Source: Gemmatimonadota bacterium (GTDB lineage: Bacteria > Gemmatimonadota > Gemmatimonadetes > Gemmatimonadales > GWC2-71-9). Taken from it: a DNA stretch of 64,000 nucleotides. The stretch covers positions 159,455 through 223,454 of the forward strand of contig SHZT01000002.1 in the NCBI GenBank assembly GCA_009692185.1. The letters run 5' to 3'. Numbering within the stretch: the stretch's first letter is position 1; each line of letters starts with the position of its first letter. Positions 4,376-44,738 of this stretch are shown here, one piece after another. A program made the position numbers and the translations under genes. Under the pieces are notes generated by a model. The model did no database searches, was not told the origin of the DNA, and saw only the letters and a program-made list of their open reading frames with translations.

Positions 4376-5623
4376 CTACTGCCGCAGCATGTGCCGCAGG
4401 AGATCGAGGCCGGCCTGGGCACTGCGGGCGCGCACCTCGTCCCGTTCACCCAGGAAACGCCGCTTCATGACTTGCTCCCGGTCTTGTACCCGGGCCGCCA
4501 GCCAGACGGTCCCGACCGGCTTCTCCGCAGTCCCGCCGTCCGGCCCAGCGATCCCGGTAACGGCAATGGACGTGTCCACGCCAAAGCGCTCACTCACTCC
4601 CGTGGCCATCGCCCGGACGACGGGCTCGCTGACCGCCCCGTGTTCGTTGATAAGCGCCAGCGACACGCCAAGCGACGCCACCTTCACCTCGTTGGCATAT
4701 GCGATCACGCCGCCCCGGAAAACGGCGGACGCTCCGGGCACCGCCGTGATCCGCTCGCCGAGCATGCCTCCGGTGCATGACTCCGCCACCGCGAGCGTGT
4801 GTCCCCCGTCCCTGAGCAGGCCAAAGACAATCGCCGCCAGGTCGGTCGTATCGTCACCGTAGTAGTGGGCCCGGAGCCCAGGAAGGAGCTCGGCTGCCGC
4901 TCTCTTGAGCGCCGTGTCGGCCGCCTCCGCCGGGAGGTTCGAGACGGTGAGACGGAGATCCACGCCATTCACCGACGGGAGATACGCGAGGGTGGCGGGC
5001 TGGATCCGGTCTTCCCGCTCCCCGATCTGTGCCGCCAGCGACGACTCACCGATCCCAGTGGTTCGCAGGGTCAGCGACCGAACCACCGTTTCCCCTTTCC
5101 CTTTTCCCTTTTCCCTGATTCTTGGGACTACCTCGTGCTCGACGAGCTTCCGCATCTCATTCGGCACGCCGGGCAGGAGGACGGCGACGCCCGGCGGGCC
5201 CTCGAGCCAAAGCCCCGGCGCGGTTCCCCAGTTGTTCGGAAGCACGGTGGCCCCGCGAGGTATCTCCGCCTGGGAGCGATTGCTCTCCGGCATCGGCACG
5301 CGGCCCATGGCGGCGAAGCGTTGCCGAAGGACCTCGAGATACCCGGAGTCCAGCTCGAGCGGGGCTTCGAAGATCGCGGCGACCACCTTCTTGGTCATGT
5401 CGTCGCGGGTCGGGCCAAGTCCGCCGGTGGCAATGACGAAGCGGGTCCGGGTCAGCGCGTCGCGCATGGCCCGGTCAATGTCTCCCGGGTCGTCGCCCAC
5501 GGTCGTCCGCCGAACGACACGCGCCCCGACTGTGGCCAGGACGCGAGCGAGTTCAGCGGCGTTGGTGTCGATCGTGAACCCGAGCAGGAGCTCGGTTCCG
5601 ATCGTCACCAGCTCAATGTCCAT
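4376..5623 (-). CDS. cinA: CinA family nicotinamide-nucleotide amidohydrolase
   Basis: The 415-aa protein starts MDIELVTIGTELLLG, the standard CinA N-terminus, and has the N-terminal molybdopterin-binding-like domain (GGLGPTRDDMTK) followed by the C-terminal PncC-type deamidase domain (AESCTGGMLGERITAVPG; GIAGPDGGTAEKPVGTVW). CinA/PncC hydrolyses NMN in pyridine nucleotide salvage. The ATG overlaps the end of pgsA by 11 nt. Residues about 170-178 (REKGKGKGE) are encoded by a GGGAAAA-type repeat identical to a sequence at 18.8 kb, probably an in-frame insertion in the linker. Confidence 0.93.
   Translation of the reverse strand: MDIELVTIGTELLLGFTIDTNAAELARVLATVGARVVRRTTVGDDPGDIDRAMRDALTRTRFVIATGGLGPTRDDMTKKVVAAIFEAPLELDSGYLEVLRQRFAAMGRVPMPESNRSQAEIPRGATVLPNNWGTAPGLWLEGPPGVAVLLPGVPNEMRKLVEHEVVPRIREKGKGKGETVVRSLTLRTTGIGESSLAAQIGEREDRIQPATLAYLPSVNGVDLRLTVSNLPAEAADTALKRAAAELLPGLRAHYYGDDTTDLAAIVFGLLRDGGHTLAVAESCTGGMLGERITAVPGASAVFRGGVIAYANEVKVASLGVSLALINEHGAVSEPVVRAMATGVSERFGVDTSIAVTGIAGPDGGTAEKPVGTVWLAARVQDREQVMKRRFLGERDEVRARSAQAGLDLLRHMLRQ
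5089..5115. repeat. GGGAAAA repeat unit inside cinA
   Basis: This 27-nt stretch of TTTCCC units within cinA is identical to 18842-18868, one arm of the inverted repeat between ispG and the MOSC gene. Here only one arm is present and the reading frame stays open, encoding a Lys/Gly-rich run. It is best explained as a half copy of a dispersed element captured in a linker of CinA. Confidence 0.75.
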
Positions 5624-17537: not shown

Positions 17538-18770
<1,233 letters not shown>

Positions 18771-18781
18771 TCGAGTCTAAT

Positions 18782-18877
18782 AAAGCGGGAAAAGGGAAAA
18801 GGGAAAAGGGAAAGGTAAAACCCGCGCCAACGCGCAGTGCTTTTCCCCTTTCCCTTTTCCCTTTTCCCGCCTTTTAT
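18782..18877. repeat. GGGAAAA inverted-repeat element, 96 nt
   Basis: A left arm of repeated GGGAAAA units (18785-18814) and a right arm of TTTTCCC units (18841-18868) are near-perfect reverse complements, with a short spacer containing AAACCCGCGCC. The element lies between two divergently transcribed genes, ispG and the MOSC gene, so it is not a simple terminator. The 27 nt 18842-18868 recur exactly inside cinA, and a shorter relative is present at 43872-43939. Confidence 0.85.
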
Positions 18878-18882
18878 TGGTC

Positions 18883-19464
18883 ATGCAAGTGCTCGGTCCG
18901 ATCATCCGGCTCCAGATCCAGCGTTCCCCCCTGAAAACCGGGGAGAAACAGCACAAGAAATACGACCCCTCGCCGATCCTCGCCCTTGAGCGGCTCCAGA
19001 TGGGTCCGGACGGCGCGATCGCCGTGGTTGACGGCCGGGACATGCTCGACGTCCATCACCGATCCCACCCCAGCAGCAAGAACGACGACGGCCTGCACGC
19101 GATATCGGTCGGGTTCACCGGCCACTATCGGGCCATGCAGGCGCGTTACGGAGAACACATGGTCGTGGGATGCGCGGGCGAGAATATCATCGTGGAACAC
19201 GCCGGCCAGATGACCCTGGACGACGTGGCGGGCGGTTTCGTCGTGCTGTCACCCGACGGGAAAGAACGTCTGCGCCTCGGCCGGGTGGATATCGCTCACC
19301 CGTGCAAACCGTTTTCGGGGTTTGCTCACCGGCACGAGATCGTCGAGCCGGAAGTCCTCAAGGCGACGCTCAAGTTCCTGGACGAAGGGACGAGGGGGTT
19401 TCGAGTGACACCGGAAACGGAAGCCGAGGTGCGGGTGGGGGACCTGCTGGCGGTGATCTCCTAG
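18883..19464 (+). CDS. MOSC-domain-like protein
   Basis: The 193-aa product fits a MOSC domain, the sulfur-carrier fold linked to molybdenum cofactor biochemistry. Evidence: an N-terminal strand segment, GENIIVEHAGQMTLDDV, the conserved Cys in IAHPCKPFSGFA and the C-terminal GTRGFRVTPETEAEVRVGDL pattern. There is no second domain. An ATG at 18883 was chosen over a TTG at 18877. The start lies a few bases downstream of the GGGAAAA repeat. The substrate is unknown. Confidence 0.7.
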   Translation: MQVLGPIIRLQIQRSPLKTGEKQHKKYDPSPILALERLQMGPDGAIAVVDGRDMLDVHHRSHPSSKNDDGLHAISVGFTGHYRAMQARYGEHMVVGCAGENIIVEHAGQMTLDDVAGGFVVLSPDGKERLRLGRVDIAHPCKPFSGFAHRHEIVEPEVLKATLKFLDEGTRGFRVTPETEAEVRVGDLLAVIS

Positions 19465-26414: not shown

Positions 26415-28631
26415 TCAAGGAGCTTTGCCCGTCACCGTGAGGCTCACGGGTCGCGCGTGACGCGCGTCACCGGAGACGTTTTCCACCGAGACGGAAAGGC
26501 GGTACTTCCCGGGGTCGAGCGAGCCGAGGTTCACGGTCTGGCGCACGCGGGTGGGCACGCCATCGGCGGCGCCTTCGAACGCCAGGCTGACGGGTATGCG
26601 CCGTCCACCGAAGAGCCCAAGGAAACCGCCACGCCCGTCTCGCGCGATTTCGATCCGGCTCCGGTACCGTTCGCCAGTCTGGATGCCGTGAATCTCATAG
26701 TACACCTCGAGGCTCGACCCCTCGGGATAGGTCATGGTCGCCGACAGCGGAATCGTGTCGGCGCCGGCCAGCCAGGACACCCCTTCACCCCGCCGGCCGA
26801 CCAGGACATCACTCAGCGCGAATGCCCCCGTTCCCAAGGCGGGCACGACGAGGCTGTCCAGCGCAATCACCGAGCCCGCGTCGGCGTTCGGCTGCGATAC
26901 GACCATTCGCACGTGGTAGCGGCCGGGCGGCAGGTCCAGCGTCGCCAAGCCGTTCAACTGCTCGCGCGCATCGAGCGAGCGCGGGGCGCCGAACGCACGG
27001 ACCGTGTCCCGGACGACGACATCCCCGTTCTCGCCCCGGGCCGCGAGCCGGATCGCCAGCGGATACACGACGCTTTCGCCTCGCCGCTCCGCGGTCAGCG
27101 CGGAGCCGGCCAGCGCAAAGGGCACGAGGAGCGTGGCGCCCCCGTCCCGTCCCCCGACGACCAGGTCCCGGACGGCCGGGGCCAGCGGCCGGGCGAACCG
27201 GAGCGCGTAGTTGTCAGTGGTCGTGCCCACGTGGATCGCCTCGCGGCCCCGGGAGCGCGCGCGCGCGAGTTCCGAACCGCGGTTGGCATACGAGCCGGGA
27301 CCGCCGAGGCGCTGGTAGAGCGGATCCATGGCGGACCGGGACTCGAACAGCCCCGCGGTGAGTGAGGCGTTGCCGCTCGCCGCCGCAGTGATCGCGACCC
27401 GGGCGCCGTACGCGTCCGCCAGGCTCTCGACCAGCTTGAAATCGTCCACGTCGTCGCGGGCCACGAAATGGAAGACGAGGCTCGCGCCGCCACCCAGGTA
27501 CTGCCACGATTCGTTCGGCTCCACGGCGGGTGAACTGTACGTGGCGCGCCGGTCCGGCTCCCCGTGCCGCAGGTAAATGACGCCGCGATCGTCGAGCTCA
27601 TCCTGTTCACTGCGGAACCGCTCTGTGATGTCGTAGTGCCGGTGCCGGCTCACGAGGTGATAGTGCCGGAGCGCATAGAAATAGCGGCGATAGTGCTCGG
27701 CGATGCGATCGCCCGGCCGCCGGCCATCGTCCGCGTCGCGCCGGGCCCAGAAGCGCTCCAGCCACCGTCGCCCGGCCCCGCCGGCGTCCAGCGAGTCGAA
27801 CGCCGCGAGCTCGGCTGGGGTGGTGATCCAGGCGAGGTCCGCGCGAAACAGCGCGCGCGCGTCCGGAGAAAGGGGCCGGTCCGCGGCCGCGTAGTAGGTC
27901 GCGATCGCTTCCGGGGTGCGCCGCAGGTAGAAGTGCGAGCGGGCGATCTCGAACAGGCCGACGCCCGAGTCCCCGCCGACCGTGAGGTAACGCTGGAATG
28001 CGGCCAGCGCCGAGTCGCCTTCACCAGACTCGCGCTCGACCCGGCCGCGGGCGAGTTGCAGCGCGGGAACGCTACCCGCCGCCGTCGCGGCGGCCTCCCG
28101 CAGGGCATCCCGTGCCACGTCGAGCCGCGCACCCACCCGTTGGCGCATGGCGGTGTGAGCGAGGTCGATGACCGCCAGCGCGAACGTCGGGTCCGCGCGG
28201 GTCGCGCGGGCAAGTGCGCGCGCGGCCTTCGACAGGTAGTCCTGCCCCAGGACCTGCCGGAGGTTTTCCAGCGCGATCACCTGGTGTTCGCCGAGCGACA
28301 GTTCCGCCAACCCGAGCCCGTACCACGGATAGGGCCACTCGGGGGCGAGCTCGGACGCCCACTCGAACTCCGAGGCCGCGTCGTCATAGTGCCGCGTGAC
28401 GCCCGTGATCTCGCCCAGCCAGTGCGCCATGAAGCCGAGTTCGACATGGAGGAGGGTGCTGTCCCGGTGCAGTCTCGCCCTCGCGATGAGCTGCTGCTCG
28501 CGGGCGAGAAGCGCGGTGGAGTCGGATTGCTGGGCAAGCGAGTCCCGCATCCGCTCGAGCCCCGCGCGCTGCTCAGTGCCCTGCGCCCGCGCCGTTTCGG
28601 CCGCGTGCATGAATGCGACAACAATCCGCAC
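26415..28631 (-). CDS. GWxTD-domain protein with N-terminal repeats
   Basis: The 738-aa protein has an N-terminal helical repeat region (about 40-250, TPR-like, with YPWYGLGLAELSLGEH), then the GWxTD-type domain: RFWARRDADD, YHLVSRHRHYDITERF and ELDDRGVIYLRHGEPDRRATY. The Trp-x-Thr-Asp motif itself is replaced by a DELDDRG variant, so it is a divergent member. The function of GWxTD proteins is unknown; they are common in Gemmatimonadota and related phyla. A Sec signal is poorly formed; the start is GTG at 28631 or ATG at 28610. Confidence 0.75.
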   Translation of the reverse strand: MRIVVAFMHAAETARAQGTEQRAGLERMRDSLAQQSDSTALLAREQQLIARARLHRDSTLLHVELGFMAHWLGEITGVTRHYDDAASEFEWASELAPEWPYPWYGLGLAELSLGEHQVIALENLRQVLGQDYLSKAARALARATRADPTFALAVIDLAHTAMRQRVGARLDVARDALREAAATAAGSVPALQLARGRVERESGEGDSALAAFQRYLTVGGDSGVGLFEIARSHFYLRRTPEAIATYYAAADRPLSPDARALFRADLAWITTPAELAAFDSLDAGGAGRRWLERFWARRDADDGRRPGDRIAEHYRRYFYALRHYHLVSRHRHYDITERFRSEQDELDDRGVIYLRHGEPDRRATYSSPAVEPNESWQYLGGGASLVFHFVARDDVDDFKLVESLADAYGARVAITAAASGNASLTAGLFESRSAMDPLYQRLGGPGSYANRGSELARARSRGREAIHVGTTTDNYALRFARPLAPAVRDLVVGGRDGGATLLVPFALAGSALTAERRGESVVYPLAIRLAARGENGDVVVRDTVRAFGAPRSLDAREQLNGLATLDLPPGRYHVRMVVSQPNADAGSVIALDSLVVPALGTGAFALSDVLVGRRGEGVSWLAGADTIPLSATMTYPEGSSLEVYYEIHGIQTGERYRSRIEIARDGRGGFLGLFGGRRIPVSLAFEGAADGVPTRVRQTVNLGSLDPGKYRLSVSVENVSGDARHARPVSLTVTGKAP

Positions 28632-28657
28632 TATCCGCCTATCCGCCTATCCGCCTA
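28631..28657. repeat. 8-bp tandem repeat, 3.4 copies
   Basis: CTATCCGC is repeated three times in succession with a final CTA. It fills the space between the stop codon of the upstream gene (its TAG is part of the last unit) and the GTG start of the GWxTD gene, so copy-number change would alter the stop-start spacing by 8 nt steps without touching either coding frame. Confidence 0.8.
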
Positions 28658-42117: not shown

Positions 42118-43869
42118 ATGATTGTCGTCTGCCGGCGGCTGGTCCACGCCGCCCTGCTGGTTGTCCTGGCCGCCGCATGCGGCCGCCCTGCGTCTCCCAC
42201 ACCTGTGGGGTTCGTTCCCGCGGAGTGGCCCCTGGGGGCGAAGGTCCAGCCCGTCACGGGCGCCCAAGCCATGGTCGTGTCGGGCAGCCCGATCGCCTCC
42301 GCCGTCGGGGTCGAAGTGCTCCGGCAGGGCGGGAACGCAGTGGATGCGGCCGTCGCCGTGGGGTTCGCGCTGACCGTTGTGCACCCCGAGGCCGGGAACA
42401 TCGGGGGCGGCGGGTTCATGGTCATCCGCCTGGCCGACGGGCGCGTCCGGACGCTGGACTACCGGGAAATGGCGCCGGGCCGCTCGACCCACGACATGTA
42501 CCTGGATTCGACCGGCGCCATCGCGGACACCCTGCGCAGCGTGACCGGTCATTTGTCGTCCGGCGTCCCCGGCAGTGTCGCCGGCCTCACCGAGGCCGCC
42601 CGCCATTACGGCACGGTGCCGCTGGCCCGGCTCTTGGAACCGGCCATTCGCTACGCGCGTGAGGGGTTCGTCCTGGACTCGTTCCGTTTCCGGTCGATCA
42701 ACGGTTCCCGGGCGCGCCTCAAGAAGTTCGAAACGTCCCGCCGCCAGTTCCTGCTGGCGAACGATTCCGCGCCCCCGCCCGGATCAACGCTCGTGCAGCC
42801 GGACCTCGCCCACACGCTTCAGTCCATCGCCGACAGCGGATGGCGCGTCTTCTACCAGGGCTATATCGCCGACCTCATCGTGGCCGAAATGGAACGGGGC
42901 GGCGGCATGATTTCGAAGGAAGACTTGGCGGCGTACCGGCCCGAGTGGCGGGAGCCGATCACCTTCACCTATCGCGGCCACACCATTTACACCATGGCGC
43001 CGTCGTCGTCTGGCGGCGTCACCATGGCCGAAATGCTGAATATTCTCGAGGGGTACGACCCGGTTCCTCCATTCGCATCCGCGGAGCAGGTGCACATCCT
43101 CACCGAGAGCATGCGCCGCGCGTTCATCGACCGGAACAGCATCCTGGGAGACCCGGCGTTCGTGGACCTGCCGATCGCGCGGCTCCTGCTCAAGCCCTAC
43201 GCCGCAAAGCTCCGGGCAACGATTGAACGGGACCGCGCGACGCCCACCCCGCCCGATGGCAAGGCTATCGCGCACGAGGGCAACGAGACCACACACTACT
43301 CCGTGGTGGATGCCATGGGGAACGCGGTGAGCGTGACGACAACCCTCAACAACTCCTACGGGAGCGCGGTTACCGTGGCCGGGGCGGGGTTCCTCCTGAA
43401 TGACGAGATGGACGACTTCACCACCGCGCCCGGCAAGCCCAACATGTACGGGCTCATCCAGGGCGAGGCGAACTCCATCGCGCCCGGCAAACGGATGCTC
43501 TCGGCCATGACGCCGACGATCGTGCTGGACCCGCGGGGCGAACTGGAAATGGTCCTCGGCACGCCGGGTGGACCGACCATCATCACGACCGTGGCCCAGG
43601 TGATCTCAAACGTCATTGACCACCACATGCCGATGGCGCAGGCCGTGGCTGCCCCGCGAATTCACCACCAGGCCCTGCCGGACACGATCCGGTTTGAACC
43701 CAACGGCCTGCTGCCGGCCACCGTCGATCGCCTGATCGCGATGGGCCACGCCATCAAGGTGCGGCCGGGGTCCGGGTTCTCCGGAGACGTGGCGGCGATT
43801 GAACGCACCCGTGCAGGATGGGTGGGGGTCGCGGATCCCCGAAGAGGGGCTGGGGCGGTAGGGTACTGA
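42118..43869 (+). CDS. ggt: gamma-glutamyltransferase, putative lipoprotein
   Basis: The 583-aa product starts MIVVCRRLVHAALLVVLAAA followed by Cys21, a lipobox-like end. It contains the GGT motifs GSPIASAVGVEVLRQGGNAV, AGNIGGGGFMVI and ETTHYSVVD, where Thr392 is the likely autoprocessing nucleophile that gives the mature two-subunit enzyme. It transfers or hydrolyses gamma-glutamyl groups, chiefly from glutathione, in the periplasm. Length is normal. It is convergent with the glycine-zipper lipoprotein gene. Confidence 0.93.
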   Translation: MIVVCRRLVHAALLVVLAAACGRPASPTPVGFVPAEWPLGAKVQPVTGAQAMVVSGSPIASAVGVEVLRQGGNAVDAAVAVGFALTVVHPEAGNIGGGGFMVIRLADGRVRTLDYREMAPGRSTHDMYLDSTGAIADTLRSVTGHLSSGVPGSVAGLTEAARHYGTVPLARLLEPAIRYAREGFVLDSFRFRSINGSRARLKKFETSRRQFLLANDSAPPPGSTLVQPDLAHTLQSIADSGWRVFYQGYIADLIVAEMERGGGMISKEDLAAYRPEWREPITFTYRGHTIYTMAPSSSGGVTMAEMLNILEGYDPVPPFASAEQVHILTESMRRAFIDRNSILGDPAFVDLPIARLLLKPYAAKLRATIERDRATPTPPDGKAIAHEGNETTHYSVVDAMGNAVSVTTTLNNSYGSAVTVAGAGFLLNDEMDDFTTAPGKPNMYGLIQGEANSIAPGKRMLSAMTPTIVLDPRGELEMVLGTPGGPTIITTVAQVISNVIDHHMPMAQAVAAPRIHHQALPDTIRFEPNGLLPATVDRLIAMGHAIKVRPGSGFSGDVAAIERTRAGWVGVADPRRGAGAVGY

Positions 43870-43871
43870 CA

Positions 43872-43939
43872 GGGAAACGGGAAAAGGGAAAAGTAAAGGC
43901 GCCTCTGGAATCGGGCGCCCTTACTTTTCCCTTTTCCCC
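43872..43939. repeat. GGGAAAA inverted-repeat element, 68 nt
   Basis: A left arm beginning CGGGAAAAGGGAAAAGTAAA and a right arm ending CTTACTTTTCCCTTTTCCCC form a near-perfect stem around a short loop (CTCTGGAATC). It lies between the convergent ggt and lipoprotein genes, where it could act as a bidirectional terminator. It is a shorter relative of the 18.8-kb element and shares its GGGAAAA units. Confidence 0.8.
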
Positions 43940-43943
43940 TCGC

Positions 43944-44738
43944 TCAGTCCGCGATCGGCTCCAGCTTGAAATCCGCGGTCAGGATGATGCGCACGAGCGC
44001 ACCCGCCGGGAGAAGAATGTCCGTGTCCTTGCTGGCGACGGCGACGCCGGCACCGGCAGCCGCGCCGACTGCGCCCCCGATTACGGTGCCCTTGGCGTTC
44101 CCGCCAATGAGCCGGCCGGCGATCGCGCCGACAGCGGTGCCGACTCCAACCTTGGCCGCATCTCCCGCGGTGACGCCGCGTCCCTTCATGACCGTCCCCA
44201 GCGTGTCCTGGCGGGCCTGCACGGCATAGTTGCGCCCACCGAATGACACCTTGCTGAAAGTCAGCACCATCCGGCCCTCACCGCCCGGACGCCCGGCGGG
44301 AGCGATGTCAGAGATGGTGCCGCTGAAAATTGCGCCTCCGGGAATCACTTCCCGGCCCTGCGCATCAGTGATCGGGGCAGTGGATGCCGCGGTGACCATG
44401 TCACCCTTCTTGTTCCTCCGCGACGTGATCGAATCGGTGGCGTACAGCTCCACGCTCGTCCCCTCGCCGAGCGACGGCGTCACCAGCTTCTCGGGCTGGC
44501 GCGACGGCGGGGGCGTCGGGGTTTGGGCCTTGGGAGGCGTGGCAGACTGCTTCTTGGGCTGCGGGGCCGGTTTCGGGGCTTCCACCGCCGGCCGGTCGTT
44601 GGCAGCCGTCGTGGACTCCGCCGGAGCCAGGCTCAAATCGCGCGCGGGCTCCTGCTGTTTCGCGGCTTCGCCGCCACCGCAGGCCACGAAGGCCAGGGCG
44701 GCCGCCAAGGCACTCACTCGAATCCGGACGTCAGACAT
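43944..44738 (-). CDS. glycine-zipper lipoprotein
   Basis: The 264-aa product starts MSDVRIRVSALAAALAFVAC, a lipoprotein signal peptide. A Pro/Lys-rich spacer (residues about 35-95), a beta-rich central part and a C-terminal glycine zipper (GVGTAVGAIAGRLIGGNAKG, IGGAVGAAAGAGVAV) follow. The zipper suggests membrane association or oligomerisation. The central part (VMLTFSKVSFGG-like) is reminiscent of OmpA/VirB10-like proteins, but no specific family is assigned. Confidence 0.75.
   Translation of the reverse strand: MSDVRIRVSALAAALAFVACGGGEAAKQQEPARDLSLAPAESTTAANDRPAVEAPKPAPQPKKQSATPPKAQTPTPPPSRQPEKLVTPSLGEGTSVELYATDSITSRRNKKGDMVTAASTAPITDAQGREVIPGGAIFSGTISDIAPAGRPGGEGRMVLTFSKVSFGGRNYAVQARQDTLGTVMKGRGVTAGDAAKVGVGTAVGAIAGRLIGGNAKGTVIGGAVGAAAGAGVAVASKDTDILLPAGALVRIILTADFKLEPIAD

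Follow-up and report, generated by a model that had tools for sequence, protein, structure and literature searches.

What kind of element is the run of GGGAAAA heptamers that separates two divergent genes at 18.8 kb of this Gemmatimonadota sequence, and how did its relatives come to lie elsewhere, including inside a conserved gene? The preliminary description of the window (the whole stretch of DNA that was analysed, 64,000 nucleotides) had recognized a dispersed GGGAAAA family at three sites, and all three are as it described them. The motif GGGAAAAGGG, with at most one mismatch, occurs 16 times in the window, compared with 3.5 (sd 2.1) in shuffled sequences, and none of 100 shuffles reached 16. 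The sites and their neighboring genes are as follows.

4376–5623, minus strand: cinA (Pfam PF02464/PF00994/PF18146)
5088–5115, minus strand: single in-frame arm within cinA, GGGAAAA GGGAAAA GGGAAAG GGGAAAC, in the linker of the MoCF/KH domains
17538–18770, minus strand: ispG (GcpE), Pfam PF04551, E 8e-117; start codon separated from the element by about 12 nt
18787–18820, plus strand: left arm, GGGAAAA GGGAAAA GGGAAAA GGGAAAG, then GTAAAA
18821–18839, no strand: GC-rich loop, unlike the loops of other sites
18840–18868, minus strand: right arm, GGGAAAA GGGAAAA GGGAAAG GGGAAAA G (as read on that strand)
18883–19464, plus strand: MOSC-domain gene, Pfam PF03473, E 2e-6; start codon separated from the element by about 10 nt
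42118–43869, plus strand: ggt, gamma-glutamyltranspeptidase, Pfam PF01019, E 2e-167
43872–43895, plus strand: left arm, GGGAAAC GGGAAAA GGGAAAA GTA, starting 2 nt past the ggt stop codon
43896–43921, no strand: hairpin-forming loop whose inner stem is GC (GGCGCC...GGCGCC)
43922–43938, minus strand: right arm, GGGAAAA GGGAAAA GTA, after the stop codon of the gene at 43944
43944–44738, minus strand: gene for a glycine-zipper-like protein, convergent to ggt; match below the Pfam cut-off

Pfam bore out the gene names originally given to ispG, the MOSC gene, ggt and cinA, but the gene at 43944, which had been called a lipoprotein gene, gave only a sub-threshold glycine-zipper match. An inverted-repeat comparison returned 32-nt arms with 94% complementarity at 18782–18813/18842–18873 and 36-nt arms with 83% complementarity at 43868–43903/43914–43949. 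Folding of the copies, proposed as a check, found both inverted repeats far more stable as RNA than shuffled sequences (−65.3 kcal/mol, z −9.3, for 18782–18873; −47.1, z −7.5, for 43868–43949). An Rfam search of 18742–18914 yielded nothing above the gathering threshold; the sub-threshold matches were to hairpins, mostly microRNA families. The third site carries one arm, which translates as REKGKGKGE, and the claim that its positions 5089–5115 repeat 18842–18868 is correct in every letter (27 nt).

The 18.8 kb element lies between the ispG ATG (18770, minus strand) and the MOSC ATG (18883, plus strand). With this divergent position and with copies in coding sequence, the earlier view that the element is more than a terminator holds. 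At 18771–18882, TTTATTAG or TTTTATTGG stands at both outer ends, about 5–15 nt upstream of both start codons, and no Shine-Dalgarno sequence is evident there; these words might serve as −10 elements of promoters that are nearly leaderless. Elsewhere in the window, at 28624–28657, a period-8 tandem repeat of ATCCGCCT in four copies marks a gene boundary.

The 2.63 Mb genome to which the window belongs (G000) has 62 exact matches to GGGAAAAGGGAAAA and 103 to GGGAAAAGGG, the latter clustered in arrays. The genome falls within Gemmatimonadota, and its closest named relatives by cinA are Gemmatimonadetes MAGs. From the stretches around the matches we classified about 38 array sites, so the family extends beyond the window, in keeping with the spread that had been proposed. 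Genes were called with our own simple codon-usage caller, whose start codons may be off. Degenerate arms are under-counted because sites were located by exact patterns. Counting arrays of three or more units, 39 of 51 have four, 11 have three and one has five; the lower bound of three was set by the search, but the sharp drop above four was not. The G-rich strand of an arm usually terminates in GT, in many cases as GTA and then G, A or C. About half of the sites are convergent pairs (19 in the G000 sample, and 18 in the relative G031), and the remainder are single arms of identical polarity. The loops between paired arms measure 4–71 nt and are unrelated in sequence. Position 7 of the unit is nearly free, with 24–38% mismatch in G000 and G031. 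An intragenic inverted pair at L049:4374-4437 consists of GGGAAGG/GGGAAGC units, a minority dialect of this genome.

The feature is a set of dispersed short G-rich heptamer arrays, and its element is one arm of four heptamers (28 nt) with fixed polarity. The preliminary description had taken the 96-nt inverted repeat as the unit and the cinA copy as half of it. Instead, the arm occurs singly or in convergent pairs, and the one in cinA is an ordinary single arm, not a broken half.

Arrays were enriched between convergent genes and depleted between divergent genes when four genomes were pooled (chi-square p 0.005), and the window site at 18.8 kb is one of few divergent cases. In G000, 18 of 26 sense G-rich arrays that follow genes begin 6 nt or less from the stop codon, compared with 7% (length-weighted) or 29% (unweighted) for random placement in the spacer; these counts are approximate since some arrays were counted in two registers. 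Neutral landing alone does not explain this flushness with stop codons. A paired element between convergent genes largely fills its spacer (five such spacers are 70–76 nt long), whereas convergent spacers without one have a median length of 4 nt.

Coding sequence makes up 91% of the G000 sample, and about one-third of the array sites lie in frame within genes. In-frame arms occur in housekeeping genes, essential ones included, and the Pfam-tested genes that carry them are cinA, hflX, rarA, alaS, rsmA and ligD. Genes named by eye add an NAD-synthetase-like and a uracil-DNA-glycosylase-like gene, a gcvT-like gene with an arm at its N-terminus, and one signal peptide. In rsmA, two arms stand on either side of a conserved stretch, and in ligD an arm pair occupies the linker of the ligase and polymerase domains. 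At L032:4020-4066, a polysaccharide-export-like protein has a likely signal peptide (MHKQYFSLFPLPFSRLFLGLVLLASPVAAQQ) whose start is formed by a C-rich arm. With so much of the sample coding, most intragenic landings have evidently been lost, and the survivors sit in linkers and loops. GGGAAAA is free of stop codons in every frame on both strands, whereas the GGTGAAN unit of another relative, G108, contains TGA. Intragenic sites accounted for 30 of 100 in three genomes with stop-free units and for none of 35 in G108 (Fisher p 4e-5). Stop-free units are thus found in genes while GGTGAAN is absent from them, and landing is therefore filtered by selection.

Exact matches to GGGAAAAGGGAAAA are rare in the family (8 of 102 genomes). 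The looser pattern of three consecutive GGNRAAN heptamers occurs in 59 of 151 genomes from the order; the units differ between genomes, and many genomes of the same family lack any match. The relatives are represented by draft assemblies, of which many probably derive from metagenomes. The units assigned to relatives are listed below.

G031: GGGAAAC/G
G108: GGTGAAA and GGTGAAC
G020: GGGGAAT
G073: GGGGAAG
G001 (same genus as G000), G003 and G015: GGNAARN units, e.g., GGGAAGA and GGGAAGT

The anatomy is shared across these spellings: relatives too have inverted pairs, arms that end in GT on the inner side and arrays that begin at stop codons. Inner GT and polarity are the same in single and paired arms, and the same in G000 and G001 despite their differing units. 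Four-unit arrays make up 30 of 39 in G031 and 13 of 17 in G001; arrays are longer in G015, and in G108 they often have three units and then a run of G. The intergenic GGGAAGT arrays of G015 (L222–L241) start at the stop codon, which overlaps the array in the frequent spelling CTAG-TGGGAAG. G001 also has a second heptamer family, GGTGCGT/GGTGCGA, in arrays of three to four units (L151, L327, L330, L351, L362, L364, L369, L376, L382 and L395).

About nine positions of G000 could be compared with G001, in a comparison that covered about one-quarter of the G001 genome; the further contigs within that quarter held no more orthologous sites. Six arms are orthologous (one each in cinA, alaS and rarA, two in rsmA, and the intergenic site of L054), and G001 has a four-unit array at each. 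Over those 24 units, position 6 is A in 21, G in 2 and C in 1 in G000, and G in all 24 in G001. The alaS array is also found in G007, with mixed spelling. Arms are present at both rsmA positions in G000, G001 and G006, the last with GGGGAGC-like units, and the rsmA loops are shorter and have no clear period of 7 in G007, G002, G003, G004 and G005. At hflX and in the spacer between alaS and its upstream neighbor, G001 has arrays of unrelated units (GGTGCGA, GGTGCGT) in inverted arrangement, and the arm at the hflX C-terminus of G000 has no counterpart in G001.

The presence of arrays in the local dialect at orthologous positions means that the positions are old and that their units turn over in concert. 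Since the unit changes in different reading frames and also at an intergenic, gene-end site, selection on proteins does not explain the change, which is a DNA-level phenomenon. Compared with known heptamer repeats, the novelty lies in this turnover of dialects at positions that are conserved. Our literature search, which covered only a minority of subscription journals, found no paper on such arrays in Gemmatimonadota or on unit change at orthologous positions.

The cinA segment had been read as a possible insertion. None of the aligned cinA orthologs from named genomes has the Lys/Gly segment, but the same-genus G001 holds its own array, GGGAAGA ×4, at the orthologous position, which indicates that the cinA copy is old and not a recent hop. 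The interdomain linker spans 36–51 nt in eight relatives and 45 nt in G000, and because of this variation in length no clean net insertion can be demonstrated. The segment is lineage-specific, as supposed, without being a clear gain in length.

The GGGAATC and GGGGA(C/T)T heptamer repeats of Xanthomonas and Nostoc (Rehm et al. 2015, PMC4692102) share with these arrays a dispersed G-rich heptamer and a preference for four units (39 of 51 arrays here). In both, the G-rich sense strand lies near or overlaps stop codons, and few copies lie between divergent genes. Convergent inverted pairs are likewise common to the Xanthomonas repeats (70 and 75 cases in two genomes; PMC4692102) and to ours (19 in the G000 sample). 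The two differ in that about one-third of sites here are in genes, against 7–11% there (PMC4692102). They differ too in that several units are used across one bacterial family here, with the unit changed at orthologous positions. Since the unit is GGGAAAA and not GGGNATC, these are repeats of the same kind but not the same repeat.

Rickettsia palindromic elements have in-frame copies in conserved genes, where they are tolerated in loops, and DNA uptake sequences occur in thousands of copies. The former resemble our arrays in their in-frame genic copies, but each is a longer conserved palindrome and not a heptamer array. The DNA uptake sequence of Neisseriaceae is also a dispersed short word with lineage-specific spelling (PMC3630211), and it has a known receptor, ComP (PMC3868556). 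However, it is a 10–12-mer in very many copies without tandem arrays, whereas GGGAAAAGGG occurs 103 times in 2.63 Mb, in arrays. The TAACTGA repeats of Beggiatoaceae (MacGregor 2015, PMC4679880) are dispersed heptamers in two to six copies, mostly intergenic with some genic. They differ in lying upstream of start codons, in not being G-rich and in having almost no inverted pairs (PMC4679880), and one unit is common to distant lineages (PMC4679880), unlike the dialects here. REP/BIME elements, with GTAG or CGTC ends (PMC3733652), also form intergenic inverted pairs, and some of our sites have GTAG-like inner ends. In contrast to REP/BIME, the arm here is not itself palindromic, and the drafts of several array-rich relatives have no match to a Y1 transposase.

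We put at about even the chance that the arms spread long ago and have since been copied from one another by template switching or short-tract gene conversion, as the Gemmatimonadota counterpart of the Xanthomonas and Nostoc heptamer repeats. Under this account, arms would have dispersed long ago, and copying at the DNA level between dispersed arrays, in either orientation, would create inverted partners, hold the length at four units and let a new unit sweep the genome. Selection would act chiefly to purge arms that disrupt genes. A probable side effect is that arm pairs at gene ends form hairpins by which transcription is halted or insulated. Of the two processes of spread first suggested, one that resembles gene conversion fits best, while transposition is unsupported (unshared loops, no target duplication and patchy Y1 transposase matches). 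We infer gene conversion between arrays from same-genus and more distant genomes, not from pairs of strains.

The clearest trace of such copying is in rsmA of G001 (L315:1697-1830), where two inverted arms flank the conserved coding stretch and both read GTGAAGA GTGTAGA GTGAAGA GGGAAGA GT. The identical order of unusual units argues for arm-to-arm copying in place. It is one example, and copying of this kind is not frequent everywhere, since in G000 and G031 the two arms of a pair resemble each other no more than unrelated arms do. A fixed order of variant units, as expected from copying of whole arms, gave no signal in G000 (p 0.56) and a modest one in G031 (p 0.009 within arrays, 0.10 by columns). 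The unrelated units at hflX and upstream of alaS go beyond conversion between similar arrays and need replacement or a second insertion.

It is also conceivable, but unlikely, that the arms are binding sites on DNA or RNA, recognized by a genome-specific protein or complex with a requirement for about four heptamers, in which case all arms would change with their receptor. As this idea would have it, arms keep their polarity and their length of four units while the spelling shifts in concert, and the Neisseriaceae provide dialects of a dispersed word (PMC3630211). Against it, copies number in the tens and not in the thousands as for uptake sequences, no candidate receptor was identified, position 7 tolerates 24–38% mismatch in G000 and G031, and the pattern is missing from many genomes of the same family.

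We consider it rather improbable that the inverted pairs are kept primarily as bidirectional terminators or stabilizers of 3′ ends. Strong folds, the position behind stop codons and between convergent genes, and the inner GC stems at some sites would suit that role, and Xanthomonas transcripts more often start or stop at G4-capable repeats (PMC4692102). However, many arms are single, unable to pair, and do not qualify as intrinsic terminators (a GC stem and then a run of U), others lie within genes, and one pair lies between divergent genes. Partner arms do not covary, and within 18782–18873 a terminator scan returned only one weak terminator-like site. Selection for arm–arm pairing was rejected because partners were no more complementary to each other than to other arms (p 0.95 in G000, p 0.96 in G031); G015 gave p 0.017, from five pairs only. 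A terminator role may apply to paired arms only.

Selection of the four G-tracts for G-quadruplex formation is a very doubtful explanation. A three-layer G4 requires at least four GGG tracts, in vitro the GGGAATC repeats do fold into G4s (PMC4692102), and in G000 the GGG positions mismatch at 1–2% compared with 4–6% at the first three A positions. Yet G positions are less conserved than AA positions in G001 and G015, and the GGTGAAN unit of G108 has no GGG. With such dialects, G4 formation cannot be a family-wide rule. Equally doubtful is active, genome-wide templated rewriting, in which breaks at arrays would be repaired or re-primed from the current master unit in runs of about four. Old positions would then retain their length and adopt the new word of the lineage, much as telomere repeats follow their template.

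A non-autonomous mobile element, either a MITE or a REP/BIME moved by a Y1 transposase, is extremely unlikely despite the dispersal, the inverted arms, the REP-like GTAG at some inner ends and two Y1_Tnp matches in G000 (one above cut-off), given that loops of 4–71 nt are unrelated, that arms are purine runs which are not palindromic and pair only with each other, that the rsmA arms flank conserved coding sequence, and that array-rich G031, G003 and G083 (drafts, 86–93% complete) have no Y1_Tnp match. A Y1 transposase (RAYT) as mover is not supported, since its matches in these drafts do not track the arrays. A MITE structure was rejected because interiors are not homologous and no target-site duplication was seen by eye at the G000 sites inspected.

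A few bacteria are known to carry dispersed heptamer repeats, on whose origin there is no agreement. In these genomes the location of an array can be separated from its spelling, since arrays of equal length and different spelling occupy the same loci, including alaS, rsmA, rarA and cinA. Concerted evolution of tiny dispersed repeats thereby becomes testable: conversion, a binding factor and templated rewriting make different predictions for close strains. For the proteins concerned, DNA-level turnover, and not protein selection, would be the source of the Lys/Gly/Arg-rich loops that recur in conserved proteins.
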